A stretch of 41,889 nucleotides of DNA from Proteobacteria bacterium CG1_02_64_396 (GTDB lineage Bacteria; Pseudomonadota; MNWR01; CG1-02-64-396), in NCBI GenBank assembly GCA_001872725.1, contig MNWR01000105.1:574-42462 (forward strand). Direction: 5' to 3'. The position numbers and the translations under genes were made by a program. Below, piece by piece: positions 10,374 to 31,130 of the stretch. The notes beneath the pieces were generated by a model, which saw only the letters and a program-made list of their open reading frames with translations, was not told the DNA's origin and did not search any database. Each line of letters starts with the position of its first letter. Position 1 is the first letter of the stretch.

Positions 10374-13300
10374 TTAGTTCACCGTGATATTGATGGTTGC
10401 GGTGTACCCACCACAATCGACCGTCACCGCGATGGTATCTGCCGGCGCCGCGGTACCCGGGATGGTCGCCGTCACCGTCACTTGCCCGCTGGCATTGGTA
10501 ATACCGGCTGCAGAGAGCGTTAGACCCGTCAAGGTTGCACTCGCCGCACTCGGCGCCTGCGATACGTTAGCTTGGACCCGAGGAACGATATTGCCGCCGC
10601 TGTCCTTGACCGTAACCACCGCAGAAATGGCGGTACCAGGCGCACTTTTAAGCGTTGCTGGCGATGCCGTCAGGGTCAACGGCGCCAAAGCCGCATATGA
10701 AGATGCGTTGTTATAGACATTCCACACCCCATTAGCCGCCGTCTCAGCATGCAACATTACGGGGTAATACATGTAGGCGACAGGGTAGGTCAGCACAACC
10801 TTGGCGATGCCGGACGTCGTCGTGGCACTTCCTCCAACCTTCGCGTACTGCGCCCGTCCAATCACATACTGATCAAGAGCACTGGTTTCGGCGAAATTAT
10901 TGAAGACGGTTAGGTTGGTCGTGCTGTTCACGGCACTGATGTAGTGAATCCCCATATCGGTACCTGCAGGGCTGCTGCTGACGTAAATTTTGTCGCCTAC
11001 TGCCACGCCACCCTGGCCATTGTTGCCCGTCGTATAGTCCAGAAGCGCACTGCCATCGGTGAAGGTCGCTGCACCGGCTGTCGTGCTGCCCTGCGTCACT
11101 GCCGCCGGGTAGGTCCGGGTCGTGTCGGTTTGCGCACCCATGGTCCAGTAATCGATCAAGCCGAAGTAAACAGCGGTCCCATCCGGAACAGGATTACCGT
11201 ACTGATCCAGGACCAAGGCCGAAACATCGCGGCTATACGATCCATTGTTGTTGTTGGTAATGGCGCTATTGCCATTGTTGAGCAAGACAACCAACGAGTT
11301 AGGAGCACCCGAATTGATGGCGATGGGAGCGCTGATGGCGGTTACCGGGGTTCCTAACAGCGCTCCGGTTTGATCCTTCACAGCCTGAAACTGAACCCGA
11401 ACCGTACCTGGAATCGTGCCCGCCTTCAGGTTGACCGAAGCCTGACCATTTACGGTGGTCAGCGGCAAAGCCGCCCCGCCATTCCCACTGGTGGTGACCC
11501 CATCGCTCAACAACTCGCCACCGTTGGGGCCGGAAAGAATCTTCACTTCAACGTTGTTTCCTGCGGTCGGATCCGTAATGGCATTGCCCGCTTCGTCAAC
11601 CACCGTCACCGTCAAGGTGGTGGTATCGGTTCCCTCTCCCAGAACAGAGATGGAAGCCCCACTCACCGCAACACTCATCGAGACAGGGTTGAACGAACCG
11701 GTCGCGGTACCCGTAATCGCTACTGTTTGAGTCAACGATCCACCGCTGGCCGTCGCCGTGAAGGTGACACTCGTGACACCCGACGAGGGGGCCGTCCAGG
11801 AGAAGGTCGCAATTCCAGACGACGTGGTGGCAGTCACTGCTGCCAACGTCCCGGCCGTAGCCGAAACGTTGAACACCGTGCCGTTGGCCAAGGGGTTGTT
11901 GTTGGCATCGACCGCCACAATCGTGAAGGTCGCGGTTGCCCCGGCGGCTACAGACGAAGGATTACTCAAAATTCGGGAGGTGGTTGCCCCGATGTTCATG
12001 ACCCCTGGATTGAAGGTCACCTGCTGAGTCGAGGTCAGCCCAGAAGCGGTCACGGTAATGGTGCGCATTTCAGCAACCTTACCCGCATCAACGGTCACCG
12101 TTGCAACACCACCTGTGGTCGTCGCCGTAACGACATTGGCCGTAGTCGCACCACTGGTCAGCGTTCCACGGTCGGTCACGAAACTGACCACCGTCCCATC
12201 GATAACGGCATTGCCGCTGCTGTCCTTCACCGTTGCCGTCAACGTCGACGTGTCGATGTTGTTTGCGGTCAGCTGAGAGAGGGAGACCGCTGTCGTTAGC
12301 GTCAGTGTGCTGCTTGAAGCCGAATTGACCGTCAACGTGCCACTTCCAGTGATCGCCGTACCCGTCACCGTTGCTGAAACGGTATGCGTCGCCACCGCAC
12401 TGGGGGTGAAGATGGTTGTCGCCGAGCCGCTGGAGGTCGACAGGTGGCTTGCTCCGAACGTCCCAGCAGACGTCGATGCCAGATCAACGCCGGTTCCATC
12501 CAATACAGCATTCCCGGTGGCATCGGTCACCCGGACCGTCACCGTCGTACTGCTTCCGGACTGAACGTTGTTGGGTGATAAACTCACAGCCACATTGCTT
12601 GCTGTACCCGGTACAAAGCTAATCGCTTGGCTCTGCGTCAAGCCGGATGCGGTTGCCGTCACCGCGCCAGCACCCACCGTGGTCGAGCTCAAGGTCACCG
12701 TGGCCACACCGCTGGCATTGGTCACCGCAGTGGTCGCTGACAACGAGCCGACCGTTGAGGTAAAGGTCACCGTCACTCCATTGACCCCATTGCCAACGGC
12801 ATCCTTAACGGTTGCCGATACCGTGATAACGGCGCCTGGCACCGCCACCAAATCGGCTGTTTGGGTGGTTTGATCCACAGCCAACGTCATCGAAGCGGCG
12901 CTCAAGGTGTTCACCGTGATGTTGGTGGTCACCTGAGCCAAAGCCCCCACCGTCGCGCCAATCGTCACCGTGCCGGCAGCCGCCGGAGTCACCGTAATCG
13001 AGGCGTTGCCGCTGGTTGTCGTCACATACAGGGACGACAGGGTCGCGCTGGTCGCCGTGGTCTCGGCAAAGGCCACCTGGGTCCCATTGGGAACCGGGTT
13101 GCCCTGGGCGTCGAGCACGCGCGCCGTCACCGTCGTGGTGTTGCCCAGCGAAACATTGTTCGGAGTCGCCGACACCGTCACCGAAGCCGCCGCTCCGCCA
13201 ATCATTTGCACCGTGCCGCTCGCACTTACACCACTGGCGGTCGCCGAAATCGTTGCCGTTCCCACCGTCGAACCGGCAGTCAGGGTCACCGTGCTGATAC

Positions 13301-16300
13301 CGGTGACGCCAGTGGCCGCGACCGCTCCCACCGTAACGTCACTGTCGACACTCACCGTCGGAGTCACCCCAGAAAGCGGAGCGCCCGTGGCGTCGCGCAC
13401 CGTCACATCCACCGTGATCGTCGAGGCGCCGTCGGCCACCAGCGTCGGTGCCGACGGGGTCACCGTCACGCTGCCCACTGCAAGGGCATTGGCCGTCAAG
13501 GTGGCGTTGGCCGTGGCCGCACCCGAGGTTGCGGTCAAGGTATGAGCGCCAGAGGCACTGGGGACGAAGCTGGTGCTCACCGAGCCGCTCACCGTCGAGG
13601 CTACTGTTACGCCAAACGTCCCGGTTCCGCCGCTGAAGGTCACCTGAGTGCCGTCAACCACAGCGTTGCCCTTCGCGTCGGTCACAACGGCGGTCACCGT
13701 CGTGCTGGATCCCACCTGAACATTGCTCGGAGACAACGTCACCGACACACCGCTGGCGCTCCCCGCCACAAAGCTCAGTGCTTGGCTCTGAGTCAGACCC
13801 GAGGCGGTCGCCGTCACCGTCGCGGTTCCCGTCGCCGGTGAGCTCAACGTCACCGTGGCCACACCGCCGCCCGCTGTCACAGCCGTCAGCCCCGACAGAG
13901 TCCCCAAGGTGCTGGTAAAGCTCACCGTCACCCCGTTCACCCCATTGCCCGCCGAATCCTTGACCGTCGCGGTCAAGGTGATCAGCGAAGCTCCGTCGGC
14001 GGTTTGAACCGTCTGATCCGCAGCCAACGTCATCGAAGCAGCGCTCAAGGTGTTCACCGTGATGTTGGTGGTCACCTGAGCCAAAGCCCCCACCGTCGCA
14101 CCAATCGTCACCGTGCCGGAAGCCGCCGGGGTCACCGTAATCGAGGCGTTGCCGCCGGCCGTGATGGCATACGTTGCCGACAAAGTCGAGCCGGTGGCAG
14201 TTGTCTCAGCGAATGCGACCTGAGTGCCATCAGGCACTGGATTACCTTGTGCATCCAAAACACGTGCAGTCACCGTCGTGGTTTGACCCAACGCAAGGTT
14301 ATTCGGGGTCGAGGACACCGTGGTGGAGGCAGCTGCGCCGCCAACGAGCGCTACCGTCACCGATCCACTCACTCCACTTGCCGACGCTGCAATGGTTGCA
14401 GTTCCAACAGCAGAACCGGCAGTCAACGTCACCGTACTGCTGCCATCGGCCCCTGTTGCTGCCACAGCCCCAACCGACATGCCGTTGTTGGCGATGACGC
14501 TGGGGGTCACCCCAACCATCGGGGCCCCACTGGTATCGTGCACTCTGACTGCAACGGTCATGGTTGCAGCACCATCAGCAACCAACTGGCTTGCAGATGG
14601 TGTGACCGTCATCGATCCCACCGCCAGACTAGCCACTTGCAAGGTCGCCGTACCTGTAATAGCGGAACCGGTCACCGTGGCAGTAATCGTGTGGGTGCCG
14701 TTGGCGCTAGGCGTGAAGGCGGTGCTGGCAATTCCATTGAAGGTTGCCACATGGGCTATCGAGAAAGCCCCTCCAAGATTCGAAACCAAGTCAACGCCGG
14801 TTCCATCGAGCACGGCATTTCCGGTGGCATCGGTGACTCGCACAGAGACTGTCGTACTCCCCCCCAACGTCACATTGCCCGCTGAGAGGGTTGTGCTTGC
14901 TGCGCTAGCGACTCCCGGCACAAAGCTCACCGATTTGGCTTGGGTCAAACCCGAAGCAGTGGCGGTGACAGCGGCGGTGCCAATGGTGGTTGAGCTCAGT
15001 GTCACCGTTGCCAAACCGCCCCCTGCCGTCGTTGCCGTTAAAGCTGACAACGCGCCCAGGCTACTGGTGAAGGTCACTGTTACACCGTTGACCCCATTAC
15101 CGGCGGAGTCTTGAACCGTGGTAGTGAAGGTAATCAGAGATGCGCCATCTGCGGTCTGTGAAGTCTGGCTGGCCCCCAGCGTCAGAGAAGCGGCGCTCAA
15201 GGTGTTCACCGTGATGTTGGTGGTCACCTGAGGCAATCCGCCAACCGTCGCTCCAATCGTCACGGCCCCTGCAACTGCCGGATTCACCGTAATTGAAGCA
15301 TTGCCGTTAACCGTAACCACGTTGAGGGCGGACAACACCGCTCCGGTGGCGGTGGTCTCTGCAAAGGTCACTTGAGTCCCATTGGGTACAGCATTGCCCT
15401 GAGCATCTACAACGCGTGCTGTGACCGTTGTGGTTTGACCCAATGCAACATTGTTCGGCGTTGCAGCGACCGAGACTGTTGCCGCAGCGCCGCCAATGAG
15501 GGTCACGGTCCCGGTACCACTGATACCGCCGTTGGATGCGGTGATGGTGCTAACCCCCACCGTTGCACCCGCCGTCAATGTTGCCGTGCTGACGCCGTTG
15601 GCATCGGTTGCAGTCGCAGCACCAACCGTGACCGCATTGTCGGCGGAGATCGTTGGGATGACCCCTACCACCGGCGCTCCACTGGTATCGAGCACCTTGA
15701 TGCTCACCGTTGTTGTTGAAACAACATCGGCCACCAACTGCGTCACCGCTGGGACCACCGTCACCGCTCCTACCGGCAAGCTTCCCACCTGCAATGTTGC
15801 AGACCCGGACACCGCGGGCGCCGAGCCTGTCACCGTAGAGGTGAGGGTATGGGCTCCCGCAGTGGTGGGGGTGTAGGTTGCGGTAGCAGCACCGCCCAAG
15901 GTCGAAAGATGGGTCTTTGAGAAGGTGCCGCCCAGGCTGGATGCCAGATCGACCCCTGTTCCATCGGCAGCTGCATTACCCGTCGCGTCGGTTACCGCTA
16001 CCGTCACGGTTGTTGAAGAGCCGAGGGAAACCGTGCTGGATCCAAGCGACACGGCGGTATTTGCCGCCGCACCGGGAACGAAAGTGACTGCTGCCGTCCC
16101 GGTCACTGTGGAGGAACTGGCTGTGACGTTTGCACTGCCTGCCACTGTGGAGGCTATGGTTACCGAGGCGGTGCCATCAGCCAGGGTCGTTGCCGATACC
16201 GCCGACAAAGTCCCGAAATTACCGGAGAAGCTGACCGGCTGCCCCGACATCAAATTGCCAGAGGTATCTGTGATCACGGCCGTCAAGGTCACCGCAGACC

Positions 16301-19300
16301 CATTTGCAATCTGTACATTTTGACTGGGCGTTAAACTAATACTGCCCACCGGCAGAGCGCTTACGTAAAGCGCGCCGGTGGTCGATACGCCCGCACCGGT
16401 CACCGTGGCAGTAATGGTGTGATTACCCGCCGCGGTCGGGGTGAAGGATGTCGTGGCAATGCCCCCGACCGTGCCCACATGAATTGCCGTGAAGGTCCCG
16501 CCCGCACTGCTGGAAAAATCGACCCCAGTGCTATCGGCCACCGGGTTGCCCTGCGCGTCGAACACACGGGCGGTTAGGGTGACCGCCGTCCCCAAAGCCG
16601 TGGCATTGGGCGCGACATCAAGCTGCGCCGTATTCGCATTGCCGGGAATAAACGAGATCGTTGTAGTTTGCGGCGTAGCCGATCCTGTCGTAGCCGTCAC
16701 GGCACCCTGACCGACTACGGTCGAACTCACGGTAATCGAAGCCGCTCCTGCCGTGGTGGTTGCTGAGGCAGCGCTCAACGTACCGAAGGTCGTCGCAAAA
16801 TCAACCGACGTACCATCCGCAACCGGACCACCGCTGATTTGCACCACATTGGCAGTGATGGTCTGCGCTGTGCCATCCGCCACCGCTTGGATTGAGGTGG
16901 GACTTACGGTCAAGAACGCCGCGCCAGGGGCTGCAAAGGGAGAATCGCCGAGCTTCCCGTAAAGGGCATCGTCATGGTTGGCAGGCAACCGGAAGAGATG
17001 CTCCGAGGATGTCTCGGTACCCGAGACCAATACAGAGGCGCGAAGCCGTGCGGTGATCCAGTTGGCGTTGGCCTTGGGGTAGATCATCTCGAAGTTGGCC
17101 ACCCCATTGGCATCGGTGGTCACGGTACGCGGAACCGAGCCAGATGCCGTGTTGGGGGGGGTCAAAAGACCGTCGCCGTTGGCATCTTCTGATACGTCGA
17201 GAACCAGGTTTTCGTTGGCATCTTCGTTGGGATAGGAGCCGGTAATTTGGGCACTGGTCAGTGGTGTTCCATCGAGCAATTGGCCATATACCACGTAAGA
17301 ACCCGTTGAATACTGGGACGGCCACAGACTCAGGGTCACAATGGAGTTTGCAACGGGGTTACCGCCCGCATCGGCCACCATAACCGCCATCGGCACTTTG
17401 TAGAGGGCCGAACTTCCTCCTCCAGCATCGACGACTTGATCCAACGCTGCTTCGCCGACAATTACCGACCCGGCAACCCCACCGATGATGATCGAGGTCG
17501 CTCCGGTCAACGTAGTCAAAGGCGCCTGCCGGAAGACGTCGGCCTGAACCGTGACCCCATTGGCACCTGAACTCAAAGCACCTGCCGAGAAGGTCGCAGT
17601 GGCAATGCCACTGCTGTCTGTGTAAGCGATGGAGGGACTGACCGACTCACCACCCCCAATGGGGTTGGGTAACGAAAATGCCACGGGCACATTTCCGACA
17701 GGCTGTCCGCTGCTCGTCTGAACCTGGGCCCGCAGTGTGGTTGTGTAGACGCTCGCCGCGGTGCTGATTGGCAACGTAGAGGCGGTCGCCTGGAGACGTA
17801 CGGTCGCTGCGGTCGAGATATCAGCAGAGAAGGCGATCTGGGTATTGGCCCTATTTGCTGAATTGGCGTCGTCATAAATCAGCACGTTGGCCAACCCAGC
17901 ACCGCTGGAGGTTAAGACCGCCGAAACGGAGGCGGGCGCCGCAAGGGCCGACACATCTTTCGAAACCACCCGTTGGCCTGCAACCCCATCCAACTCGCCC
18001 AAAGTGGTTGCAAAGGTGACAAAGTGAGTCTGACCGACCCCCAATCCAGGGTTGGGAACACTCACTGTGACCGTCACTGGAGAACCGATGGTCTGCGGGA
18101 ATGGGCTTGTTGCCGGAGCAGTTACAGATAGAACATTCGCAGCGGCATTGACCGTCAAATCGAGGTTCCATGAGGCGTTCAGCGCTGATGCGGTTAATGT
18201 CACCGTTCCTGCGGAAATACCGGTAATTGCGGTTTGAACCTGACCATTGATGTCGGTTGTCCCCAGTGCAATGGCCGCCGTCGTGAGCGGAGTAACTCCA
18301 GCTAAGACCTTGTTGTTGATGGACGCCTTCAACGACACAGCGGTGTTGTAAACCGGTTTCCCGCCCGCATCGAGCACTGTCACGGTTATGCTGGAGCTAT
18401 CGCTCCCGTTATCGGTTACAGAAGGGGCCGAGGCGGTTGCCGACACGGTGGAACCGCTGATCTGAACCGGGATTTGGCGTGACAAAACACCTATCGTGGC
18501 GGTGATGAGCACCACCTGATTTTGCGGATCGACCGATCCAGCAGAGAACGACACCGTCGCCTTGCCTGACGCGTCGGTCACGGCGTTTCCTGAGCCGAGT
18601 TGACCTGCCGCTGCTGCAAAGCTGACCGTGGCATTGGGGATGACGACGTTGTTGGCATCCAGCACGGTGGCGGTCAGGGTCGCAAAGTCGCTGCCGTCCG
18701 ACTTCACCGAAACTTGGCTCGTACCCAGTCCAAGGGAGGTGGGCACCGCTGGCGTAGTCACCGCAACAAAATCGACTGAAACAGTCTGAGGAGACGTACC
18801 CGTGACCGAGGCGGTAACCACCGCATTCCCCGTCACTGCCGAAGACAAATCGACGCTCGCTTGACCCGCCGCATTCGTTACTGCCGTTAGGGCAGTAAGT
18901 GCACCGAAGGTCGAAGTAAAACTCACCGTCACCCCAGATGCGGAGTTCCCTAATGAATCTTTCAAGGTCGCCGTCAAGGTTACCGGGGTGCCGTCCGCGT
19001 ATTGGCTGAGCTGCGACGCCAACAACGTCACGGAGGTCACCTGCGGCGACATCACCGTAAGGTTATTAGATGCGGTTGCGGCTGTTCCCGTCACGTCTGC
19101 CTGAATGGTGACGGTTCCCGTGGCGTTTGGGGTCACGGTTGTCGAAGCGACGCCACCGGTTGTGGTGGTGTAGACGGCCCCCAATGTTGCGCTGCCGGCC
19201 GTCACCGAGAATTTGATTTGGGTTCCATCCGGAATCGGATTCCCGTTGACATCGACGAATCTCGCCGACACGACGGGCAGGGTCGGATCGCCAACCGCCA

Positions 19301-22300
19301 CGTTGTTCGGACTGAAACTCAACGTACCGTTTGCAGCAACACCCCCCACAAATTGTACATCGGCGCTGGTTTGTACCACGCCAGATGTAACCGTGACCGT
19401 TGCGGTTCCTATTGTGTTTTGAGTCGTTAGCGTCACGCTGGTCAGACCAAACGAATCGGTCGCTAGCGGCGCACTCAATAGCCCCAGATTCGTTGAGACA
19501 ACAGGCACAATCCCCACAATTGGCGCCCCGGTTGCGTCGGTTACCGCTATATCGAGGACGACACTGGCGGCGCCATTCGCAACCAAGGGGGCATTGCTGT
19601 TGAGTTGAAGTGAAATGGCCCCCACCACAGGGGCGGCGACCTTCAGTGACGCCGTTCCCGGCGGGATTGTGACAATGCCTAACGGAAGATTTTGGACCAC
19701 GCTGGCAGACAAAGTCTCATTGCCAGCCGAAGTCGGGGTATATGTAGCCGTGGCGATTCCACCTGAGGTTTGCCCATATTGCTTGCTCCACAGGCCGCCT
19801 AGCCCAGTCGATTGAAAATTGACGACCGTGCCATCCTCAACCGGATTGCCATACTGATCGGAGACGACCGCACTTACACCCACCGAACTTCCCAACAATG
19901 TGTTGGTTGATGTCAGCGAAATACTGCTTTTTGCAGGAATCCCCGCAGCAACCGTAAATGTCTTAATCCCGGTTTGGTAGCCGGATGCCACGACCGAAAC
20001 GACCCCAGAGCCTGGCAAATAGGATTGAATCGTAAAAGTGACGTTACCACTGGCATCGGTTGCAGGCAGAGGGAATGGGGCAACCACACCCATGGTGGTT
20101 GAAATGCTAACCGGAACGTTTGATGCCGAGTTTCCAAGGGCATCCGTCAAGTTAACGGTGAAGCTCAAGGGGGTGTCTGTTCTCCCGCTGCCCCCCGTGA
20201 TCGTCATCGTCCCCGAGCCACCGCTGATAAACGGTGAATTCAAAACCAATCCAGCATCGACATCGGATTGCAAGACAGGAAGGCTAAATGGATAGGTGTA
20301 AAAATATTCGGTCCCCGAAACGCGCACGCTGGCCTTGATATCGTCGTCGATCCACGCCGCCATCGCCTTGGGATAGATCAGCACGAATGAGGCTAGCCCG
20401 TTTTTGTCGGTGGTCACCGAGGCGGGAATCGTGCCCCCGGCTGCGTTAGGCGGTGTCAGTACCCCATCACCATTGGTGTCTTCGTCTACCGGAGATCGAT
20501 CATGAATAAGGTTTTTGTTGGTGTCTTCGTTGGGGATGGGATTGGACCGAAACACCTGCCATTTTAATGTGGAAACGCTGGTGCTGGTCCCACCCGAGGT
20601 CGTTGTGATCGTCGAATCAGGAACCTGTGCCCAATAGCCCGTGCGGTAGTAGGACGGCCAGATTTTGAGGCTCACTGCGGTGTTGGCCATGGGGCTGCCG
20701 CTACCGTCGACCACCAGCGCCATCATGGGCATGGTGTAATAGGTATCGTCGCTGGATGCGGTCCCGACCGTGCTTCTGCCCAAAACAATGGATGCAGGTA
20801 CCCCCCCGATAATGATCGAGGTTTGCTGTGCCGTTCCAAGTAGGTTCGTCGTTGGATCGATGATCTGGGCTTGAACCGTGACCCCGTTGGCACCACTGGC
20901 CAACGAACCTGCCTTGAAGGTCGCCTGGACGACGCCCGATGCATCGGTAAAGCCCACCGTCGGGGAAACCGTTTCCCCTCCACCGGTCGGATTGGTGATC
21001 GAGAATAAAACCGGCACCCCCGCAATGGGCTGCGAGGGTGCTGGGGTTCGAACCGTGGCTCGAAGGATGGTCGAATTGGATGCCCCCCCAACGCTAGCTG
21101 GCAATTGAGAAACATCAGACTGCAGGGTCATGCTTGGATTTGCCACAAAGGGGGATGCAATGACTACCGTACGCACATCGCTGTACACATCGGGGTGATC
21201 GGGATCGTAAACCCTTATATTGGCCACGCCCGAAGTGGTGGAGGCCAAGGTTGCAGTCGCACTTGTCCCCGAAAGGGTGCAAACCACAACTGCTGTACCT
21301 AGCCCCGTTGCAGCTGGAGCTGGAGCGTTCCCTGTGACTGCGGTCCAAGTCCCTAATGTCGTTGCAAAGGCAATCCTTGTTTGAACAGGAGTTCCCGTTG
21401 CGGCTTTATTCACCGCTATTTTGATGGCATTGGCTTTGGGTGTGGCGGGGGTCCATAAAACCACCGGGGCACCGGCTGTTTCTAACGCGGGGGGCGTCGC
21501 GCTCACGACCGGAGAGGTAATCCTAAAAGCATTGGCTGCCGCACTCACCGTGTAGTTCTGCGTTTTGGTTTGATCCCCAAGACCCTTAGCCTCAATCACC
21601 AAGCTCCCTGTGCTCCCAGTGCCGGTTCCCTCAATCGTAACGGTGGCCACACCAAACCCATCTGTTTGCGCCGAAAGGGTCTGAAGTGGCTGGGGCGCAG
21701 AGGCGTTTACGTCCGTGATCGTACCCGTGGCGGGCAGTGGGATGCTTGGGGAAGTAACCGTGAAATCGATCAGTGCTCCCGCAATTGGGTTGCCCCCCGC
21801 ATCCAAGGCGGTCGCTTTCAACGTGTCTGTGATCGGGTTGGTCGGGGGTGCCGCCGTGGTCAGCGAGGTGGTCGTCGTCGCCAACGAAAGGGTCGAGCCC
21901 CCGACCGCGATTTGGAGGGTTTGTTGGGGGAGGGTGCCGACGTTAGCGGTGATCGTCGCGAGTTGGTTGTTTCGATTACCTGTTCCCGATGAGAACGTCA
22001 CGCTGGCTACGCCATTTACATCGGTCGTCGCTGAAGCTGAGCTTAATTGGCCCGCATCCGTCGTAAAAGTCACCGGGACTCCGGCGATCACCGCATTGGC
22101 GGTATCAAGAACGGTTGCCGAAACGGTTGAGGTATTGCTGTTGTCGGATTTAACGCTGTAGATGGTGGCGCCCAACGACAGGGTCGCAGGTATGGCCGAT
22201 ACCGTTGTACCCGCAGCGGTTACAATGACACTTGTTGTGCTGGAAACCGATCCGCTTGTTGCTGTGACGGTGACCGTTCCGGCAACATTATCTTTAATCG

Positions 22301-22631
22301 TGGCGGTGAAAACGCCGGATGATGAAGTTGTCCCCGAGAGCGGTGAGAGGCTTGCCGTCGCACTGCTCGTAGTCAGTGCAATTGTGGCCCCAGAGACCGC
22401 GGCCCCCGTGCTGTCCTGAGCTAGGACCGTGATGGTCGAAGTCGTGACGCCATCACCCTGGATTGAGGCAGGGTTCGCTGTCATTACCAAGGCTGCAACC
22501 GTTGGCGTCGTCGTTCCGCCAGAGCCGGAACTCGATGTAGGGTTCTGATTGCCGCAGCCTGAAGCGACCAACATCGCTGCAACCCACGCAACACCCCAAC
22601 CCTGCACCATCCAATTACGAAGACGATTCAT
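10374..22631 (-). CDS. Giant bacterial Ig-like repeat lipoprotein
   Basis: About 4085 residues in one uninterrupted frame. An export signal (MNRLRNWMVQGW, then a hydrophobic core) ends in VASGC, a plausible lipobox with Cys26 as the lipidated residue. Nearly all the rest is tandem Ig-like domains of about 85-100 residues of the Big_1/invasin type, each with a core like TVTARVLDAQGNPVPDGT, some 40 in total. The N-terminal half holds two diverged copies of a large module, each with an Asp/Asn-rich loop (NEDTNKNL, DTNGDGVLTPP). The middle has three to four copies of a four-domain unit. The C-terminal end resembles part of the N-terminal module. No beta-barrel, LysM, autotransporter or RTX end is visible. 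The ATG at 22631 has AAGGTGG upstream; a GTG at 22640 is an alternative. It lies 66 bases after pilQ. A surface adhesin or stalk role is inferred. Confidence 0.9.
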   Translation of the reverse strand: MNRLRNWMVQGWGVAWVAAMLVASGCGNQNPTSSSGSGGTTTPTVAALVMTANPASIQGDGVTTSTITVLAQDSTGAAVSGATIALTTSSATASLSPLSGTTSSSGVFTATIKDNVAGTVTVTATSGSVSSTTSVIVTAAGTTVSAIPATLSLGATIYSVKSDNSNTSTVSATVLDTANAVIAGVPVTFTTDAGQLSSASATTDVNGVASVTFSSGTGNRNNQLATITANVGTLPQQTLQIAVGGSTLSLATTTTSLTTAAPPTNPITDTLKATALDAGGNPIAGALIDFTVTSPSIPLPATGTITDVNASAPQPLQTLSAQTDGFGVATVTIEGTGTGSTGSLVIEAKGLGDQTKTQNYTVSAAANAFRITSPVVSATPPALETAGAPVVLWTPATPKANAIKIAVNKAATGTPVQTRIAFATTLGTWTAVTGNAPAPAATGLGTAVVVCTLSGTSATATLASTTSGVANIRVYDPDHPDVYSDVRTVVIASPFVANPSMTLQSDVSQLPASVGGASNSTILRATVRTPAPSQPIAGVPVLFSITNPTGGGETVSPTVGFTDASGVVQATFKAGSLASGANGVTVQAQIIDPTTNLLGTAQQTSIIIGGVPASIVLGRSTVGTASSDDTYYTMPMMALVVDGSGSPMANTAVSLKIWPSYYRTGYWAQVPDSTITTTSGGTSTSVSTLKWQVFRSNPIPNEDTNKNLIHDRSPVDEDTNGDGVLTPPNAAGGTIPASVTTDKNGLASFVLIYPKAMAAWIDDDIKASVRVSGTEYFYTYPFSLPVLQSDVDAGLVLNSPFISGGSGTMTITGGSGRTDTPLSFTVNLTDALGNSASNVPVSISTTMGVVAPFPLPATDASGNVTFTIQSYLPGSGVVSVVASGYQTGIKTFTVAAGIPAKSSISLTSTNTLLGSSVGVSAVVSDQYGNPVEDGTVVNFQSTGLGGLWSKQYGQTSGGIATATYTPTSAGNETLSASVVQNLPLGIVTIPPGTASLKVAAPVVGAISLQLNSNAPLVANGAASVVLDIAVTDATGAPIVGIVPVVSTNLGLLSAPLATDSFGLTSVTLTTQNTIGTATVTVTSGVVQTSADVQFVGGVAANGTLSFSPNNVAVGDPTLPVVSARFVDVNGNPIPDGTQIKFSVTAGSATLGAVYTTTTGGVASTTVTPNATGTVTIQADVTGTAATASNNLTVMSPQVTSVTLLASQLSQYADGTPVTLTATLKDSLGNSASGVTVSFTSTFGALTALTAVTNAAGQASVDLSSAVTGNAVVTASVTGTSPQTVSVDFVAVTTPAVPTSLGLGTSQVSVKSDGSDFATLTATVLDANNVVIPNATVSFAAAAGQLGSGNAVTDASGKATVSFSAGSVDPQNQVVLITATIGVLSRQIPVQISGSTVSATASAPSVTDNGSDSSSITVTVLDAGGKPVYNTAVSLKASINNKVLAGVTPLTTAAIALGTTDINGQVQTAITGISAGTVTLTASALNASWNLDLTVNAAANVLSVTAPATSPFPQTIGSPVTVTVSVPNPGLGVGQTHFVTFATTLGELDGVAGQRVVSKDVSALAAPASVSAVLTSSGAGLANVLIYDDANSANRANTQIAFSADISTAATVRLQATASTLPISTAASVYTTTLRAQVQTSSGQPVGNVPVAFSLPNPIGGGESVSPSIAYTDSSGIATATFSAGALSSGANGVTVQADVFRQAPLTTLTGATSIIIGGVAGSVIVGEAALDQVVDAGGGSSALYKVPMAVMVADAGGNPVANSIVTLSLWPSQYSTGSYVVYGQLLDGTPLTSAQITGSYPNEDANENLVLDVSEDANGDGLLTPPNTASGSVPRTVTTDANGVANFEMIYPKANANWITARLRASVLVSGTETSSEHLFRLPANHDDALYGKLGDSPFAAPGAAFLTVSPTSIQAVADGTAQTITANVVQISGGPVADGTSVDFATTFGTLSAASATTTAGAASITVSSTVVGQGAVTATTGSATPQTTTISFIPGNANTAQLDVAPNATALGTAVTLTARVFDAQGNPVADSTGVDFSSSAGGTFTAIHVGTVGGIATTSFTPTAAGNHTITATVTGAGVSTTGALYVSALPVGSISLTPSQNVQIANGSAVTLTAVITDTSGNLMSGQPVSFSGNFGTLSAVSATTLADGTASVTIASTVAGSANVTASSSTVTGTAAVTFVPGAAANTAVSLGSSTVSLGSSTTVTVAVTDATGNAAADGTGVDLASSLGGTFSKTHLSTLGGAATATYTPTTAGAHTLTSTVTGSAPAVSGSATLQVGSLPVGAVTVVPAVTQLVADVVSTTTVSIKVLDTSGAPVVGVIPTISADNAVTVGAATATDANGVSTATLTAGATVGVSTITASNGGISGTGTVTLIGGAAATVSVAATPNNVALGQTTTVTARVVDAQGNAVPNGTQVTFAETTATGAVLSALNVVTVNGNASITVNPAVAGAVTIGATVGGLPQVTTNITVNTLSAASLTLGASQTSQTADGASLITFTTTVQDSAGNGVNGVTVTFTSSLGALSALTATTAGGGLATVTLSSTTIGTAAVTATASGLTQAKSVSFVPGVASAASTTLSAGNVTLGGSTTVSVRVTDATGNAVLDGTGVDLVSNLGGAFSIAHVATFNGIASTAFTPSANGTHTITATVTGSAITGTATLQVASLAVGSMTVTPSASQLVADGAATMTVAVRVHDTSGAPMVGVTPSVIANNGMSVGAVAATGADGSSTVTLTAGSAVGTATIAASASGVSGSVTVALVGGAAASTTVSSTPNNLALGQTTTVTARVLDAQGNPVPDGTQVAFAETTATGSTLSATYAITAGGNASITVTPAASGTVTIGATVGALAQVTTNITVNTLSAASMTLAADQTVQTADGASLITLTATVKDSAGNGVNGVTVSFTSTLGTLSGLTAVTAGGGVATVTLSSPATGTATVTATASGLTQSQALSFVAGSASGVSVTLSPSNVQVGSSTTVTAVVTDAKGNAVVDGTQVTFSGGTGTFGVTVASTVSGSVSTSFVPSASGAHTLTATSGAATANATLTANALAVGSVTVTPSAPTLVADGASTITVDVTVRDATGAPLSGVTPTVSVDSDVTVGAVAATGVTGISTVTLTAGSTVGTATISATASGVSASGTVQMIGGAAASVTVSATPNNVSLGNTTTVTARVLDAQGNPVPNGTQVAFAETTATSATLSSLYVTTTSGNASITVTPAAAGTVTIGATVGALAQVTTNITVNTLSAASMTLAVDQTTQTADLVAVPGAVITVSATVKDAVGNGVNGVTVTFTSTVGSLSATTAVTNASGVATVTLSSTTVGAGAVTATASGLTQSQAISFVPGTASNVAVSLSPNNVQSGSSTTVTVRVTDATGNAVLDGTGVDLASTSAGTFGASHLSTSSGSATTIFTPSAVATHTVSATVTGTAITGSGTLTVNSASSSTLTLTTAVSLSQLTANNIDTSTLTATVKDSSGNAVIDGTVVSFVTDRGTLTSGATTANVVTATTTGGVATVTVDAGKVAEMRTITVTASGLTSTQQVTFNPGVMNIGATTSRILSNPSSVAAGATATFTIVAVDANNNPLANGTVFNVSATAGTLAAVTATTSSGIATFSWTAPSSGVTSVTFTATASGGSLTQTVAITGTATGSFNPVSMSVAVSGASISVLGEGTDTTTLTVTVVDEAGNAITDPTAGNNVEVKILSGPNGGELLSDGVTTSGNGGAALPLTTVNGQASVNLKAGTIPGTVRVQFQAVKDQTGALLGTPVTAISAPIAINSGAPNSLVVLLNNGNSAITNNNNGSYSRDVSALVLDQYGNPVPDGTAVYFGLIDYWTMGAQTDTTRTYPAAVTQGSTTAGAATFTDGSALLDYTTGNNGQGGVAVGDKIYVSSSPAGTDMGIHYISAVNSTTNLTVFNNFAETSALDQYVIGRAQYAKVGGSATTTSGIAKVVLTYPVAYMYYPVMLHAETAANGVWNVYNNASSYAALAPLTLTASPATLKSAPGTAISAVVTVKDSGGNIVPRVQANVSQAPSAASATLTGLTLSAAGITNASGQVTVTATIPGTAAPADTIAVTVDCGGYTATINITVN
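12895..14037 (-). repeat. Four-Ig super-repeat, unit 3 (1143 bases)
   Basis: A unit of about 381 residues made of four Ig-like domains in order, with starts such as LSAASMTLAAD, SVTLSPSNVQVG, LAVGSVTVTPS and ASVTVSATPNN. Its first domain boundary and the next unit's share an identical run of 59 bases (starting at 12896 and 14039 on the plus strand). Unit length is read from the recurrence of that run. Confidence 0.8.
14038..15189 (-). repeat. Four-Ig super-repeat, unit 2 (1152 bases)
   Basis: A second copy of the four-domain unit (about 384 residues: LSAASLTLGAS, ASTTLSAGNVTLG, LAVGSMTVTPS, ASTTVSSTPNN). It is highly similar to unit 3 at its ends and more diverged in its interior. The upstream unit from 15190 to about 16340 is a third, clearly weaker copy, and a two-domain partial copy lies at about 12330-12894. 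Confidence 0.78.
17150..17240 (-). other. Asp/Asn-rich loop, copy 2, in the giant protein
   Basis: Encodes NEDANENLVLDVSEDANGD followed by GLLTPPN. The spacing of Asp and Asn (DxNxDG type) resembles calcium-binding loops of dockerin or thrombospondin type. It is embedded in a module diverged from, but colinear with, the one around 20460-20550. Calcium binding is inferred from composition only. Confidence 0.55.
20455..20550 (-). other. Asp/Asn-rich loop, copy 1, in the giant protein
   Basis: Encodes NEDTNKNLIHDRSPVDEDTN followed by GDGVLTPPN. Flanking residues (KIWPSYYRTGYW before, VLIYPKAMAAWI after) match those around copy 2 (SLWPSQYSTGSY, EMIYPKANANWI), which shows the two belong to one duplicated module. 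Confidence 0.55.
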
Positions 22632-22697
22632 AGCCGCCACCTTGTCTTTTTCCTGCTTAGTGAGTTCAGCAAACAGCGCGCAAGTCCCATTGCTTGG

Positions 22698-26461: not shown

Positions 26462-27013
26462 CTACGCCTCCGGCTTCTTGATAACGGCCAGAATCCTGAA
26501 CCGACTTACAGCAACCCCTTGAACTTCTTGTTTTTCCACCGAGTTGATATTTGGCACATCACTAAAAAGGCCAGACTCATCCAACTCCCGAACCAAATCC
26601 GACACCTCCTGACTACTTCGTGCGTAGCCAGTCATCGTTAGATCGCGCCCCCTGAGAACCAAGTTGCTATACCAAACCTGGTCGGGCGTCTTTGCGACAA
26701 GAACATTCCAGAGATTTACCATGCTCCCACGATCAACCTGGAGGGAATCAATGATCGTGATTTTTTGCTCGGCCTCTTTCTTTGTCTTTTCAATTCGATC
26801 CACCGACTTAACCTTAGCCGTAAGAAAGGTTAATTGCGTTTGCTGTTGGTTCTTTTGTGACTTTAAGTTTTCGATCTCTTGATCCTGAAACCACCAAGCC
26901 ACGGCACACGCCATTGTGGCGATCAACGCCAACCCTGCCATCCCCGACATATGAAAAACCAAAAGCCGTCTTCGGGAAGCCTCGCGGTATGGAAGCAAAT
27001 TGATGGTAATCAT
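26462..27013 (-). CDS. pilN: Type IV pilus inner-membrane protein PilN
   Basis: The 183-residue product begins with ITINLLPYREA, the conserved cytoplasmic tail that docks into a groove of PilM. One membrane helix (about 22-42), a coiled-coil segment and a C-terminal periplasmic domain that dimerises with PilO follow. Its ATG overlaps the pilM stop (TAATG), so the two are coupled. Confidence 0.93.
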   Translation of the reverse strand: MITINLLPYREASRRRLLVFHMSGMAGLALIATMACAVAWWFQDQEIENLKSQKNQQQTQLTFLTAKVKSVDRIEKTKKEAEQKITIIDSLQVDRGSMVNLWNVLVAKTPDQVWYSNLVLRGRDLTMTGYARSSQEVSDLVRELDESGLFSDVPNINSVEKQEVQGVAVSRFRILAVIKKPEA

Positions 27014-28128
27014 TACGAAATGCCCCGAAGAGCCAAGCCTGCGGCAACATTGAACAGCGGCCCTACCGACTGAACCTTATCGTCTTCCATGTCTGGCACG
27101 CGGATATCCATCCCGGAGAATGGATTCCCGATTACAACTGGCACGCCAATTCGCTCGGTAAGTTGCGCTTGCGCATCCGGCAAAACCGCACCGCCGCCAC
27201 TTACAGACACCCTGCTCACAGACATACCACCGTGACTTGATGAGAAATAGTCGATTGAACGAATAATTTCCATCGCCATCGATTCATAAAAGCCCCCCAG
27301 CAAGTTCATGATGTCGTCCATGCCCCCCTGGGATCTCAAGATGCTTTCGGCCTCTTCGTATGAAATTCCCAGTTCCCCCTGGATCTCTTCAATAAACTGC
27401 CGCAACCCAAAGTTGGTATCGCGCGTGAACTGGCTGACACCATTCACCAAAATATTGATATTCATTAACGAAATGCCAATATCAACCAGGGCCACGATAA
27501 AGTCCTGGTCCTTGGTTTCTTCTCCATCTTCATGCGCTACAACAGATAGATCATCAAACCCCAAGGTCGGCTCGATAATTTCTTGGTAGATGTTTTGAAC
27601 CGCAAATAAATCGACATCCATGATCTTGGGCACAAGCCCAGCCTCTCGAACTACAAACAAACGATCCTCAACAGCCTCCCGCTTGCAGGCAACCAGTAAA
27701 ACATCTACTTCATCTTTCTCGGGCTTTTTACCCAATACCTGAAAATCAATATTCACATCTTTTATATCGAATGGAACCGCTTTTTCAGCCTCATCGGTCA
27801 CCACCGCTTCTAACTCCAATGGCCCCATATCCGGCAGGGTAAGCTTCTTAACAATCACCGCCGTTCCGCTAACGGACAAAACAACGTTTTTTGAAGAAAA
27901 ATGGCGCCGTGCGAACAGGTTGCGGATGGCTTCTGCGACGAGATTAGCATCCATGACCTGACCCTCGACGATCGTGTCCGGAGGAAGGTATTCAATGCCA
28001 ATATTTCGCAGGATAACGCCCGAAGCACCTTTGGAGCGACGCGCTTGGGTAATCTCGACCGCCTTGATTGCGGAAGTCCCAATGTCGAGCCCCACTAGCT
28101 GCGAGGCCCTACCACCAAACAGCTCCAT
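27013..28128 (-). CDS. pilM: Type IV pilus assembly ATPase-fold protein PilM
   Basis: PilM is an actin/FtsA-like cytoplasmic protein that binds the PilN tail. The 371 residues contain the phosphate motif LVGLDIGTSAIKAVEI near the N-terminus, a second motif around VALVDIGISLMNI and the adenosine motif VSGGGAVLP, matching the full-length family. A GGGGGAG ribosome site precedes the ATG. It is the first gene of the pilMNOPQ array and starts about 30 bases beyond the terminator of the minor pilin operon. No convincing separate promoter could be found in that small gap. Confidence 0.95.
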   Translation of the reverse strand: MELFGGRASQLVGLDIGTSAIKAVEITQARRSKGASGVILRNIGIEYLPPDTIVEGQVMDANLVAEAIRNLFARRHFSSKNVVLSVSGTAVIVKKLTLPDMGPLELEAVVTDEAEKAVPFDIKDVNIDFQVLGKKPEKDEVDVLLVACKREAVEDRLFVVREAGLVPKIMDVDLFAVQNIYQEIIEPTLGFDDLSVVAHEDGEETKDQDFIVALVDIGISLMNINILVNGVSQFTRDTNFGLRQFIEEIQGELGISYEEAESILRSQGGMDDIMNLLGGFYESMAMEIIRSIDYFSSSHGGMSVSRVSVSGGGAVLPDAQAQLTERIGVPVVIGNPFSGMDIRVPDMEDDKVQSVGPLFNVAAGLALRGIS

Positions 28129-28150: not shown

Positions 28151-28194
28151 CAAGAAAAAAGCCTGCCAATGGGCTATTCGACCCATTGGCAGGC
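28151..28194 (-). terminator. Rho-independent terminator after the minor pilin operon
   Basis: A perfect 13-base-pair stem (GCCTGCCAATGGG, 28161-28173, with 28182-28194) with an eight-base loop, followed on the minus strand by TTTTTTCTTG. It lies about 100 bases after the pilX-like stop. Confidence 0.9.
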
Positions 28195-28297
28195 TATCAG
28201 AGAATCGCTTCAAGTCAAGACAAGCTATTGTTATTCAGCCTGTTACGGCGCTAGTTTAAACCTACCCATCAACAATATTCTTGGCCTGTGCGTTATC

Positions 28298-29188
28298 TTA
28301 CTGCGCAGTGTAGGTGCCGGGGACCGCAACAACGGCGCCGCTCGGGGTCAGATACTGCAACGTCACGGTAACGGTCGCAGTCGCGCCATTGTAGGTGCCG
28401 ACCGAGGTCACGTCGGCAACATCAACACCAGCAGGACATGCGCCTTGAATGTCGCCATGGGCCTCGTGTGCAGACCAAGCATTTTCAGAGATGCTGATGG
28501 TGTGCTGCCCTGAGCCATTACCGGTCACATGGCAAATAGTGATCTTGGTACCGTTGTCGTCGTTGTCCTTGCTGCTGTCGTTGTCGTCGTTGTCCTTGCT
28601 GCTGTCGTTGTCGTCGTTGTCCTTGCTGCTGTCGTTGTCGTCGTTGTCCTTGCTGCTGTCGTTGTCGTCGTTGTCCTTGCTGCTGTCGCCGGCTACAGCC
28701 GTTGGCACCAGGAAATTCAACAGGCGTTCAATAGAAGACTGGTCCTTGCCGTTGTCGTCGTTATCCTTGCCGTTGTCGTCGTTATCCTTGCCGTTGTCGT
28801 CGTTATCCTTGCCGTTGTCGTCGTTGCTGGCCGTCGAGGTGATCTGGAGGGTGTATTTAGCCTCACCAATGGAATGCTCCCCATCCACCCCAAGCGTAGT
28901 TGCATTAAAAACAGCGTCGGTTCCGTTTGCAGAGACATACTGGGCAATCGCTGCACGTGCAAGCTCAATCCCGGACTCTGCTGCTGATGTAGCCATTTGG
29001 GAATCACGATAGTTGGCGCTGATCGAAACATCGGTCTGCGACGATTGCATCGCCACCACGCCGACCACAGAAACAGCAGCCAGCATCACCAAGCCAAGCG
29101 CCAGAATGAAACCGTTCTGATCGACTTGATTATCCCCGTGGAGCCATTGGGTACGGCGGCTCTCTTGACCGTTCTCATTCTTGTTCAT
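28298..29188 (-). CDS. pilX: PilX-like minor pilin with acidic tandem repeats
   Basis: A 296-residue minor pilin. After a 26-residue leader it has G|FILALGLVMLAAVSVVGVVAM, the prepilin cleavage site and hydrophobic helix. Glu5 is absent, as is usual for PilX-type pilins. RDSQMATSAAESGIELARAA then matches the pilin helix end. The head is unusual: four copies of a seven-residue unit (DDNGKDN), a hydrophobic spacer (LLNFLVPTAVAG), five copies of a nine-residue unit (DDNDSSKDN), then a Cys/His segment (ICHVTGNGSGQHTISIS, continuing to AHEAHGDIQGACP). The last motif resembles ICHxxP...AHxxHGDxxGxC segments I know from secreted proteins of several phyla. AGGAGA precedes the ATG. It is last in the operon; pilY1, commonly found next to pilX, is absent. 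The PilX name rests on order and N-terminus. Confidence 0.8.
   Translation of the reverse strand: MNKNENGQESRRTQWLHGDNQVDQNGFILALGLVMLAAVSVVGVVAMQSSQTDVSISANYRDSQMATSAAESGIELARAAIAQYVSANGTDAVFNATTLGVDGEHSIGEAKYTLQITSTASNDDNGKDNDDNGKDNDDNGKDNDDNGKDQSSIERLLNFLVPTAVAGDSSKDNDDNDSSKDNDDNDSSKDNDDNDSSKDNDDNDSSKDNDDNGTKITICHVTGNGSGQHTISISENAWSAHEAHGDIQGACPAGVDVADVTSVGTYNGATATVTVTLQYLTPSGAVVAVPGTYTAQ
28551..28688. repeat. 27-base tandem repeat in the minor pilin gene
   Basis: About five copies of a 27-base unit (four perfect ones at 28572-28598, 28599-28625, 28626-28652 and 28653-28679). Each encodes nine residues on the minus strand (DDNDSSKDN). Copy-number change would keep the frame. Confidence 0.92.
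28744..28826. repeat. 21-base tandem repeat in the minor pilin gene
   Basis: Three perfect and one nearly complete copy of a 21-base unit (28744-28764, 28765-28785, 28786-28806, 28807-28826), each encoding seven residues (DDNGKDN) on the minus strand. It shares the GTTGTCGTCGTT core with the neighbouring 27-base array, so the two probably arose from one another. Confidence 0.92.
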
Positions 29189-29302
29189 GGCCGTTCTCCT
29201 TCATGCGATGTCGATTTGATAGGCCCTTGCCGGACCGCCCTGCCCCGCCCCCCCCTGTGGGGTTCGGGTGAATTGTGTTCAAAGGCTTTAGAAGCGAAGC
29301 AG

Positions 29303-29935
29303 CTAGTTGAATGCCAAATTTCGAGGCGAAACAAAACTCGTCAAGGTGTAGGTTCGGTAGCCATTGTTCAGGCTATATCCTTCATCTTTATTTGCGGTAC
29401 GCACTGTCAAGTTAATTTCAATCAAAACCACATCAGCCTCGTTTGTTGCCTGTTGTGATAAATCCAACGGGTCCGAATACATTGTGAAAGACAGGCTACT
29501 CGCATTCAAAGCCAAAGGCTGTTTCGTTTCCGTACCCCTCTTGCGCCCTATGGCTTTAACCCCCCCAAGGAGCGTGCTGTCGTAAAGGTCATACACAATG
29601 GTTTCAGGCACGAGCACTCCATTTGTTGGGCCATTAACATCCGCCTGAAAAATCACCTTGCTGTAGCTTCCGTCTTGATTTTTGTAAGACTGATTTGGAA
29701 AAGAAAAACTGCTGGCCATTCTCATTTCTCGGGTCATCATGTCCATTGCGACCCGCGCGCCTTGCATCATATCCGTGATTTCATCACGAACCTGATACCC
29801 TTTATTTTGTGCAATGAAGGCGCTTGTGATCGCGGCAAAAAAAATCCCTGCCAGCGCCAATGTAATCATCATCTCAATGAGGGTAAAACCACCTTCCCTA
29901 CACCCGCCAACACGATGATTTGTTTGATCGTTCAT
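29303..29935 (-). CDS. pilW: Minor pilin PilW
   Basis: A 210-residue minor pilin of the PilW/GspJ type. A 16-residue leader ends in Gly before FTLIEMMITLALAGIFFAAI (Glu5 present). TDMMQGARVAMDMMTREMRMA continues the helix as in PilW proteins. The rest is a beta-rich head. Minor pilins prime pilus assembly and may sit at the tip. The ATG overlaps the pilV stop (ATGA). A 114-base gap without a clear terminator separates it from the pilX-like gene. Confidence 0.88.
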   Translation of the reverse strand: MNDQTNHRVGGCREGGFTLIEMMITLALAGIFFAAITSAFIAQNKGYQVRDEITDMMQGARVAMDMMTREMRMASSFSFPNQSYKNQDGSYSKVIFQADVNGPTNGVLVPETIVYDLYDSTLLGGVKAIGRKRGTETKQPLALNASSLSFTMYSDPLDLSQQATNEADVVLIEINLTVRTANKDEGYSLNNGYRTYTLTSFVSPRNLAFN

Positions 29936-30456
29936 GGCATGACGTCCCTGAGCAGGGTGATGGAATAGGGCTCACCATTCGCCTTGGTTTTTCCATTCCA
30001 CAGCCACTGTACTTTAACGCTAATGCGTGTGAGCGTAATCCCACTAACGGCCGGCGCACTCTGGATCTCCAAACACCTGCGGTAATCCCAATCGCCTGCA
30101 GCCCCCTCGATCAGCCCACCTCCCGTGGTAGCATCGTTTTTGAAATATACTGCTCCGGAATAGCTATTCGTTGGATCGCAGATCTGGTTGGGAATCAGTC
30201 CAGAATAAAACGCATAAAGATCGGAGCCAGCAGTCGCCACAGAGATTGCCTCTTCCATCTTGTCATTAGCCATGGTCGCGGCATTGGTCATTTGTTTGCT
30301 AAAAACGGACGCCCTAGCAACACTGGCCATCATCCCCGCCATCCCAAGCATGCCGATCGCAACAATCACCATTGCTACCAACATTTCAATGAGCGTAAAA
30401 CCCGCAGCCGAATTGCTGCTCGAATGTTGAGACCGCATGTTGTGGTTTACGCGCAT
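29932..30456 (-). CDS. pilV: Minor pilin PilV
   Basis: A 174-residue minor pilin of the PilV/GspI type. The prepilin site AAG|FTLIEMLVAMVIVAIGMLGMAG includes the AIGMLGMAG pattern typical of PilV. Two Cys residues in the head (CDPTNS and RRCLEIQ) could form a disulfide. The start is ATG 30456, or M7 at 30438; either gives a workable leader for the prepilin peptidase. It follows fimT by three bases and overlaps pilW by four. Confidence 0.88.
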   Translation of the reverse strand: MRVNHNMRSQHSSSNSAAGFTLIEMLVAMVIVAIGMLGMAGMMASVARASVFSKQMTNAATMANDKMEEAISVATAGSDLYAFYSGLIPNQICDPTNSYSGAVYFKNDATTGGGLIEGAAGDWDYRRCLEIQSAPAVSGITLTRISVKVQWLWNGKTKANGEPYSITLLRDVMP

Positions 30457-30459
30457 CGC

Positions 30460-30987
30460 TCACTCCACATGGCTCGAGCCCGCCACATTTACCTTGACTA
30501 GGCGCGTAGTACCGTTGCTATCCGACAATTGAACATGGCCATTAGGCGTGGCGGTTCCCATGTACTTAAATGTGAAGACCGACCCACCACCAAAAGACGC
30601 TTGGGTAATCGCTATCCTCGGAAAGCTCTCTCCGATACTCCGTACCGAAACTTCACCGCTATCCTTCACATTATCGCCATCTTTATCCGACCAAATAATG
30701 TAGTGGGTGCCATCGGCCGTATACCCAACCCCTCCAGCTGTGACACTCTGATTAAACAAAAAGCTGACGTCATGCCGCTCCTTCACGGCCAACATTCTGG
30801 CATTGTTAAAATCGCCCAGCACAAACCTAGCCGCCCCCTTCAACTGCTGTCTGGCCATGATGTCGGAAATTGTTGGCATCGCGATTCCCGCCACCACACC
30901 CAATACGGCCAATGTGATCAGCAACTCGATCAAGGTAAACCCACGTGCTTGCTGCATCTTGGCCACCTTGGTTGGGGATACGTCCAT
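30460..30987 (-). CDS. fimT: Minor pilin FimT/GspH
   Basis: The first gene of the minor pilin operon encodes a pseudopilin of the GspH/FimT type. The prepilin site is ARG|FTLIELLITLAVLGVVAGIAMP, followed by QLKGAARFVLGDFNNARMLAVKE and the family's WSDKDGDNVKDSGE loop. Two starts compete. ATG 30987 (175 residues) has a strong GGAGGG site. ATG 30957 (165 residues, leader MQQARG) has AAGG eight bases upstream and fits the start point predicted from the sigma54 motif. The frame also stays open to 31041, without support. I give the stronger ribosome site precedence. Confidence 0.85.
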   Translation of the reverse strand: MDVSPTKVAKMQQARGFTLIELLITLAVLGVVAGIAMPTISDIMARQQLKGAARFVLGDFNNARMLAVKERHDVSFLFNQSVTAGGVGYTADGTHYIIWSDKDGDNVKDSGEVSVRSIGESFPRIAITQASFGGGSVFTFKYMGTATPNGHVQLSDSNGTTRLVKVNVAGSSHVE

Positions 30988-31001
30988 CTCGCCCTCCACT
31001 C

Positions 31002-31017
31002 TGCAACTTGAGTGCCA
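31002..31017 (-). promoter_or_regulatory. Sigma54-type (-24/-12) promoter before fimT
   Basis: On the minus strand TGGCAC, five bases, TTGCA: GG (-24) and GC (-12) are spaced exactly as in the RpoN consensus. Transcription would start near 30991. Sigma54 control is known for pilin genes in Pseudomonas. An activator site upstream was not identified. Confidence 0.6.
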
Positions 31018-31130
31018 TTTTCTTAAGTTGTTGTTATGCAATTATTTTTTTAATTCCAGCGAAAAGCTTCGACCAAAACATGGGCCAAGATCGGCTCACT
31101 TTCTTTCTTTAACGCGTCGAAGGCTACCCA

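Follow-up and report, generated by a model that had tools for sequence, protein, structure and literature searches.

The minor-pilin operon and its last gene

The DNA analyzed here, called the window below, is a stretch of 41,889 nucleotides from Proteobacteria bacterium CG1_02_64_396 (contig MNWR01000105.1). It carries, as the last gene of a fimU-pilV-pilW-pilX operon that lies ahead of pilMNOPQ, a gene for a minor pilin. The features are as follows, with the evidence for each in parentheses.

30460..31041, minus strand: FimU/GspH-like prepilin
29932..30456, minus strand: PilV-like prepilin
29303..29935, minus strand: PilW-like prepilin (N_methyl)
29196..29201, minus strand: a good Shine-Dalgarno, AAGGAG, 7 nt 5' of the pilin ATG (sequence)
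28298..29188, minus strand: PilX-type modular minor pilin, 296 aa (ORF, PilX_N match, operon context)
29111..29188, minus strand: class III leader, residues 1-26, predicted cleavage after G26, DQNG/FILAL (sequence)
28928..29110, minus strand: N-terminal pilin helix, residues 27-87 (PilX_N; AF2 helix 24-87)
28838..28858, minus strand: head strand YTLQITS, residues 111-117, directly before the insertion (AF2, of low confidence here; paralogue alignment)
28742..28822, minus strand: acidic array 1, (DDNGKDN)x3 + DDNGKD, residues 123-149 (TRF, codons)
28688..28741, minus strand: hydrophobic/amphipathic segment QSSIERLLNFLVPTAVAG, residues 150-167, ending AxA (sequence)
28553..28687, minus strand: acidic array 2, (DSSKDNDDN)x5, residues 168-212 (TRF, codons)
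28430..28549, minus strand: CH/HGD/C module, residues 214-253, predicted beta-beta-alpha (independent profile, conservation, AF2 pLDDT 84-96)
28349..28417, minus strand: C-terminal head strands, residues 258-280, TSVGTYNGATATVTVTLQYL (AF2; the same strands follow the module in Ignavibacteria pilins)
28160..28195, minus strand: intrinsic terminator, 15 bp stem and T-run, between the pilin gene and pilM
27013..28128, minus strand: PilM (PilM_2, E 6e-70)
reaching 22698, minus strand: PilN, PilO, PilP and PilQ-like ORFs after PilM (ORF positions)

That this ORF is a PilX-type minor pilin, as a preliminary description of the locus had it, is well supported, both in its identity and in its architecture. 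Residues 26-75 match PilX_N (PF14341) with an E of 4.6e-9 and 36.6 bits, against a curated cut-off of 25.5, and the operon is one of minor pilins. Here, a leader ending in DQNG is followed by a hydrophobic helix, FILALGLV, and mature position 5 carries no Glu. The residues before the cleavage Gly are Asp and Gln, not Lys or Arg, which counts against the reading set out in the last section. A Peptidase_A24 gene (prepilin peptidase) is present in the same genome.

The PilX_N helix, the missing Glu5, the minor-pilin operon and a small C-terminal beta head are all shared with PilX/GspK-type minor pilins (PF14341). What distinguishes the window pilin from that type is an insertion of about 140 residues in the head, holding two acidic arrays and a Cys/His module. 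A further difference is that no PilY1 was found in the genome, a partner that is usual, though not strictly defining.

Pilins of the PilX/GspK type without Glu5 sit at or near the pilus tip. A search for PilY1 (PF05567) gave no match in the genome of the window, although it did find the protein in 15 of 50 related genomes; there is thus no support for a canonical tip capped by PilY1. Directly 3' of the pilQ-like gene (window 10374-22640, minus strand) lies a gene for a predicted lipoprotein of 4088 amino acids with about 32 Big_1/invasin-type Ig-like domains, possibly a pilus-associated adhesin.

Two acidic repeat arrays

Tandem Repeats Finder (TRF) places array 1 at 28743-28825 (21 bp, 4.0 copies) and array 2 at 28552-28688 (27 bp, 5.1 copies), both with 100% identity. 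The codons are identical across all units save the last 7-mer, which reads DDNGKDQ. The preliminary description counted four DDNGKDN and five DDNDSSKDN units. Both numbers hold, if the fourth unit of array 1 is allowed its final Gln and array 2 is divided as DSSKDNDDN; as DDNDSSKDN, it has only four complete units plus flanking partial ones. From the perfect identity of the units at the DNA level, we infer a recent expansion by slippage or recombination. Because the unit lengths are divisible by three, copy number could change without a frameshift.

Perfect repeats also collapse easily in assembly, and the genome is a draft of 109 contigs. The copy number may, therefore, be wrong. This same consideration might be carried further, to the view that the feature is an artefact of misassembled repeats or a spurious ORF. 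A real gene is supported, however, by its Shine-Dalgarno sequence, its operon position, its family match, its in-frame units, and a homologous paralogue elsewhere in the genome. Artefact is thus very improbable as an explanation.

More weight attaches to the reading of the preliminary description, in which calcium, other cations or mineral surfaces would be bound by the acidic repeats, and it is the repeats that would do the work of a tip in contact with metal. The net charge of the tether region is, after all, -22 over 95 residues, and array 1 holds four DxDxNG cores. Further, the GspK/XcpX tip pseudopilins are known to bind calcium, although they do so via a folded head (PMC6211770). Against this, the loop of EF-hand, dockerin and TSP3 units (DxDxDGxxxxxE/D) is not reproduced: DNDDNGKDNDDN has Asn at position 12 instead of an acid, array 2 has no Gly, and the window pilin has no match among calcium-binding Pfam models. 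The proposal in the preliminary description that the Asp repeats could bind calcium is, to this extent, not supported. Nor do the arrays recur: the paralogous pilin in the same genome has none, and comparable module-bearing pilins have Gly/Glu/Ser or Lys/Gly/Asp linkers whose sequences are unlike those of the window arrays. Failing the calcium-loop pattern and being absent from the paralogue, the arrays are likelier to be a spacer than an active part, and a direct binding role for them must be considered improbable.

A hydrophobic segment between the arrays

The two arrays are separated by QSSIERLLNFLVPTAVAG, a non-repetitive stretch of 18 residues that the preliminary description did not mention. 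Four pilins from different families of Pseudomonadota, all with low-complexity linkers, have a hydrophobic segment that ends AxA, then the linker, then the module. These segments are LLNFLVPTAVAG, FVLLGDVAYASG, FNALISDARADD / FDLLISDARAEE, and ILLDSISGEATAATYA, and the loci are the window (28688-28741), L032 (8954-10778), L199 (6145-8133) and L200 (6633-8807). Such segments resemble the c-regions of signal peptides, yet they are internal, and their hydrophobicity is well under that of a true membrane helix. The role of the segment may be to dock as an amphipathic helix or to be cut as a processing site; it may also be the relic of a captured secreted-protein gene.

Should a peptidase cut the AxA segment SSIERLLNFLVPTAVAG after AVA, the product would be a piece, separate or non-covalently held, consisting of array 2, the module and the C-terminal strands. 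The signal-peptide-like endings that precede the module in three other module-bearing pilins (DARA, DVAYA and ATYA) would fit a cut of this kind. The low hydrophobicity would not, and the segment is absent from the ignavibacterial pilins and from the same-genome paralogue; moreover, one copy in family G021 has the segment without any module after it. A second processing site is, on balance, quite improbable.

A Cys/His module shared with other secreted proteins

The module that follows array 2 has a CH near its start, then A-H-x-x-H-G-D, and then G-x-C at its end, over about 34 residues (218-251). Its key residues in the window pilin are C219, H220, H241, H244, D246 and C251. Against a profile built only from modules in other organisms, the window module scores 51.4 bits (E 3.7e-12 for a million sequences), while the best among 1000 shuffled versions of the module scores 8.3 bits. 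The match is not due to chance. None of the Pfam, NCBIfam and PHROG models or PDB sequences covers the module; a weak hit to LysR (E 0.039) was judged to be chance. Searching the literature with literal motif strings gave no paper on the module, although descriptions in other words could exist.

Scanning named genomes yielded 158 confirmed relatives, of which 80 were kept. These 80 include Bacteroidota, Ignavibacteria, Planctomycetota, Chloroflexota, Gemmatimonadota and Myxococcota, as well as archaea such as Nitrosopumilus and Pacearchaeota. The carriers are very different kinds of protein, many of them in organisms without an evident mineral lifestyle. The module is an uncatalogued mini-domain of secreted proteins in bacterial and archaeal phyla. 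The preliminary description noted that many bacteria have the motif in proteins that they secrete, and this is borne out.

Within the Pseudomonadota, 22 of 398 genomes have the module, most of them from one family, that containing Mariprofundus. There it appears in small secreted proteins, behind Ser/Asp/Lys/Asn-rich repeats. Those of Mariprofundus itself share with the window pilin the order of an acidic or Ser/Lys/Asp repeat linker and then the module; unlike it, they have a signal peptide, are not pilins, and have in common the C-terminal tail R[ES][IV]xGQ, for which the window pilin has no counterpart.

Two side observations came from the same relatives. First, of 70 module-bearing ORFs counted (none above 320 aa), 33 have R[ESTQN][IVY]xGx at the very C-terminus, for example REIHGQ or RSIYGQ, nearly all of them in the Mariprofundus family (the loci, mostly from that family, are L002-L009, L026, L036-L060, L183 and L185); the background is 97 in 3746 ORFs, with repeated copies of the same proteins included. 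Such a shared ending has the look of a C-terminal tag for sorting or recognition, of a kind not yet described. Second, two Chloroflexota loci (L103, L128) have a related type of module, CHATGSxTNPYVxITV...H..H.GDIIPAP..GC, in which the last Cys is displaced and which shares its protein with a standard module.

Among 145 distinct module matches, no variation is seen, wherever the match reaches them, in the two Cys, the first His, the Gly or the Asp; the remaining two His, in the predicted helix, are conserved at 97-98%. These statistics are partly biased, because the genome scan selected on VxAH[LIM]AHGD; the Cys-His start and the last Cys lie, of course, outside that pattern. The full set of key residues is found in 44 of 54 matches from loci outside the scan, and some of the others are truncated.

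An AlphaFold2 model of the window pilin, made from an alignment of 64 rows, has a mean pLDDT of 61.7. It shows a long N-terminal helix (24-87), disordered arrays and two C-terminal strands, with the head strands and arrays poorly predicted. The module is predicted with more confidence (pLDDT 84-96 by blocks), as two strands (215-221 and 228-234) followed by a helix (235-243), so the structure prediction called for in the preliminary description yields a beta-beta-alpha fold. The same fold is predicted in an ignavibacterial pilin (468 aa, mean pLDDT 80), there at lower confidence (block pLDDT 59-67). A fold search with the window model returned nothing below E 0.3, and no PDB match at E <= 0.001, as expected for a model of low confidence.

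Conservation of this kind can be read in two ways. The module could be purely structural, a protease-resistant knob made by a disulfide, with no ligand, the arrays being a neutral spacer; it would then owe its spread to being stable and readily inserted as a piece of protein surface. In favour of this view, neither Cys varies in any match that covers it, losses are seen at two of the three His, and the module is found in very different kinds of protein. The loss of helix histidines in some copies, including the paralogue in the same genome (His to Gln), in turn weakens the case for an essential metal site. However, His, Gly and Asp are 97-100% conserved over many phyla, which is more than a staple needs. 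A purely structural role is thus unlikely, although it carries more weight than any other alternative to a binding module discussed here.

The module in other pilins

The preliminary description did not know the motif from pilins. It does, in fact, occur in them. A second FimU-PilV-PilW-PilX cluster in the same genome (L031 9307-11688, contig C57) encodes a PilX that bears the module without arrays; its HGD is changed to QGD, and its PilX_N score of 23.7 is just under the cut-off of 25.5. In three other Pseudomonadota families (G021, G036 and G156), pilin-like proteins with one or two modules sit inside clusters of N_methyl-type prepilins. The PilX_N score falls below threshold in G036, and G021 and G156 give none; the assignment as pilins therefore rests on the N-terminal pattern and on the neighbourhood. 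The module is also found in two N_methyl prepilins of Planctomycetota and in one TadG-like protein. A motif search among pilin-like proteins, proposed earlier as a check, thus finds it in several pilin families; absence from orthologues had been named as the outcome that would tell against the earlier reading, and the motif is present in the relatives.

The Ignavibacteria/Melioribacter show where the module enters. Pilin-like proteins from 13 loci have the module in the position equivalent to that in the window pilin, and, again as there, an S-x-G-T-[YF]-x-G strand comes next. In two ignavibacterial genomes, a module-free paralogue directly adjoins the module-bearing pilin, and the two sequences align on both sides of the module: GGEINVSVVSDSAFKIVTSSGTFEG against GGIINVYISN-[module]-VIIISEGTFQG. 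This alignment of both flanks places the module in a turn between two head strands. The insertion point is, of course, taken from the ignavibacterial paralogues; the window pilin has the long arrays in its link as well.

At loci L159 and L160 (Ignavibacteria), adjacent paralogous ComZ-like pilins are found, one with and one without the module. They are a natural pair for testing what the module does.

Pilins that carry grafted modules are already known. PilB of Streptococcus sanguinis is a minor pilin onto which a vWA module has been grafted; that module binds Mg/Mn and mediates adhesion, which makes the adhesion of the pilus metal-dependent (PMC8179133). The window pilin likewise has a module grafted onto a minor pilin, and PilB's is thought to act at the tip; in the window pilin, by contrast, the module is a 40-residue CH/HGD/C mini-domain for which no Pfam model was found, not a vWA or lectin domain, and it stands on a long acidic tether. 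A second example is the GspK-like pilin ComZ of Thermus thermophilus (PDB 6QVI), in which an extra domain separates the last two strands; it has been proposed as a DNA-binding component of the pilus tip (PMC6561018). It, too, has its insert between head strands, and the ignavibacterial pilin model matches it (Foldseek E 3.9e-8); this fold match belongs to the ignavibacterial pilin. The ComZ insert is a large beta-solenoid, whereas the model of the window pilin contains none. The window module is, moreover, homologous to modules in secreted proteins that are not pilins. What the window pilin adds to the known modular pilins is thus an uncatalogued module and an array tether.

A proposed tip pilin with a tethered module

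The surprising component is, then, the widespread and uncatalogued Cys/His module, repeatedly fused to pilins, and not the acidic repeats. Since the module recurs in pilins, and in a paralogue that is free of arrays, it is the conserved part, the arrays being a local and recently expanded tether.

We consider it somewhat more probable than not that this is a modular tip pilin, in which an anionic tether carries a Cys/His module stapled by a disulfide, and that the module gives the tip a binding activity, probably adhesion to a ligand, metal-dependent or other. Here, prepilin peptidase would cut after G26, and the N-terminal helix would enter the pilus core; in the type IV pilus whose genes lie alongside, the pilin would most likely belong to the tip complex. 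Between two strands of the head sheet, some 140 residues are inserted, in the order array, amphipathic segment, array and 40-residue module. A C219-C251 disulfide probably staples the beta-beta-alpha module, in which H220, H241, H244 and D246 may form a small ligand or metal site. The arrays would be a flexible, strongly anionic tether that holds the module away from the tip, its length shifting in frame through repeat slippage. The module, in turn, would lend the tip adhesion to a surface, a polymer or metal. As the genome has no recognizable PilY1, one may speculate that the module takes over the role of tip adhesin.

The occurrence of the same module in pilus proteins of unrelated bacteria suggests a general-purpose sticking or metal-binding part. 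A broader hypothesis would have a ligand- or metal-binding mini-domain repeatedly grafted into the heads of tip pilins, in at least four Pseudomonadota families, Ignavibacteria and Planctomycetota, as a general type IV device for binding at the tip; in Pseudomonadota, its usual companions would be an amphipathic AxA segment inside the chain and an anionic tether whose length varies by slippage. This is a possibility to be held tentatively, and is less probable than the reading of the window pilin itself.

How type IV pili acquire new binding specificities is an open question, to which grafted modules are one proposed answer. With neighbours that have and lack the module, its insertion point and its function can be tested directly. 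Should it prove to bind metal or polymer, a single assay would annotate the module in a large number of genomes from numerous phyla.
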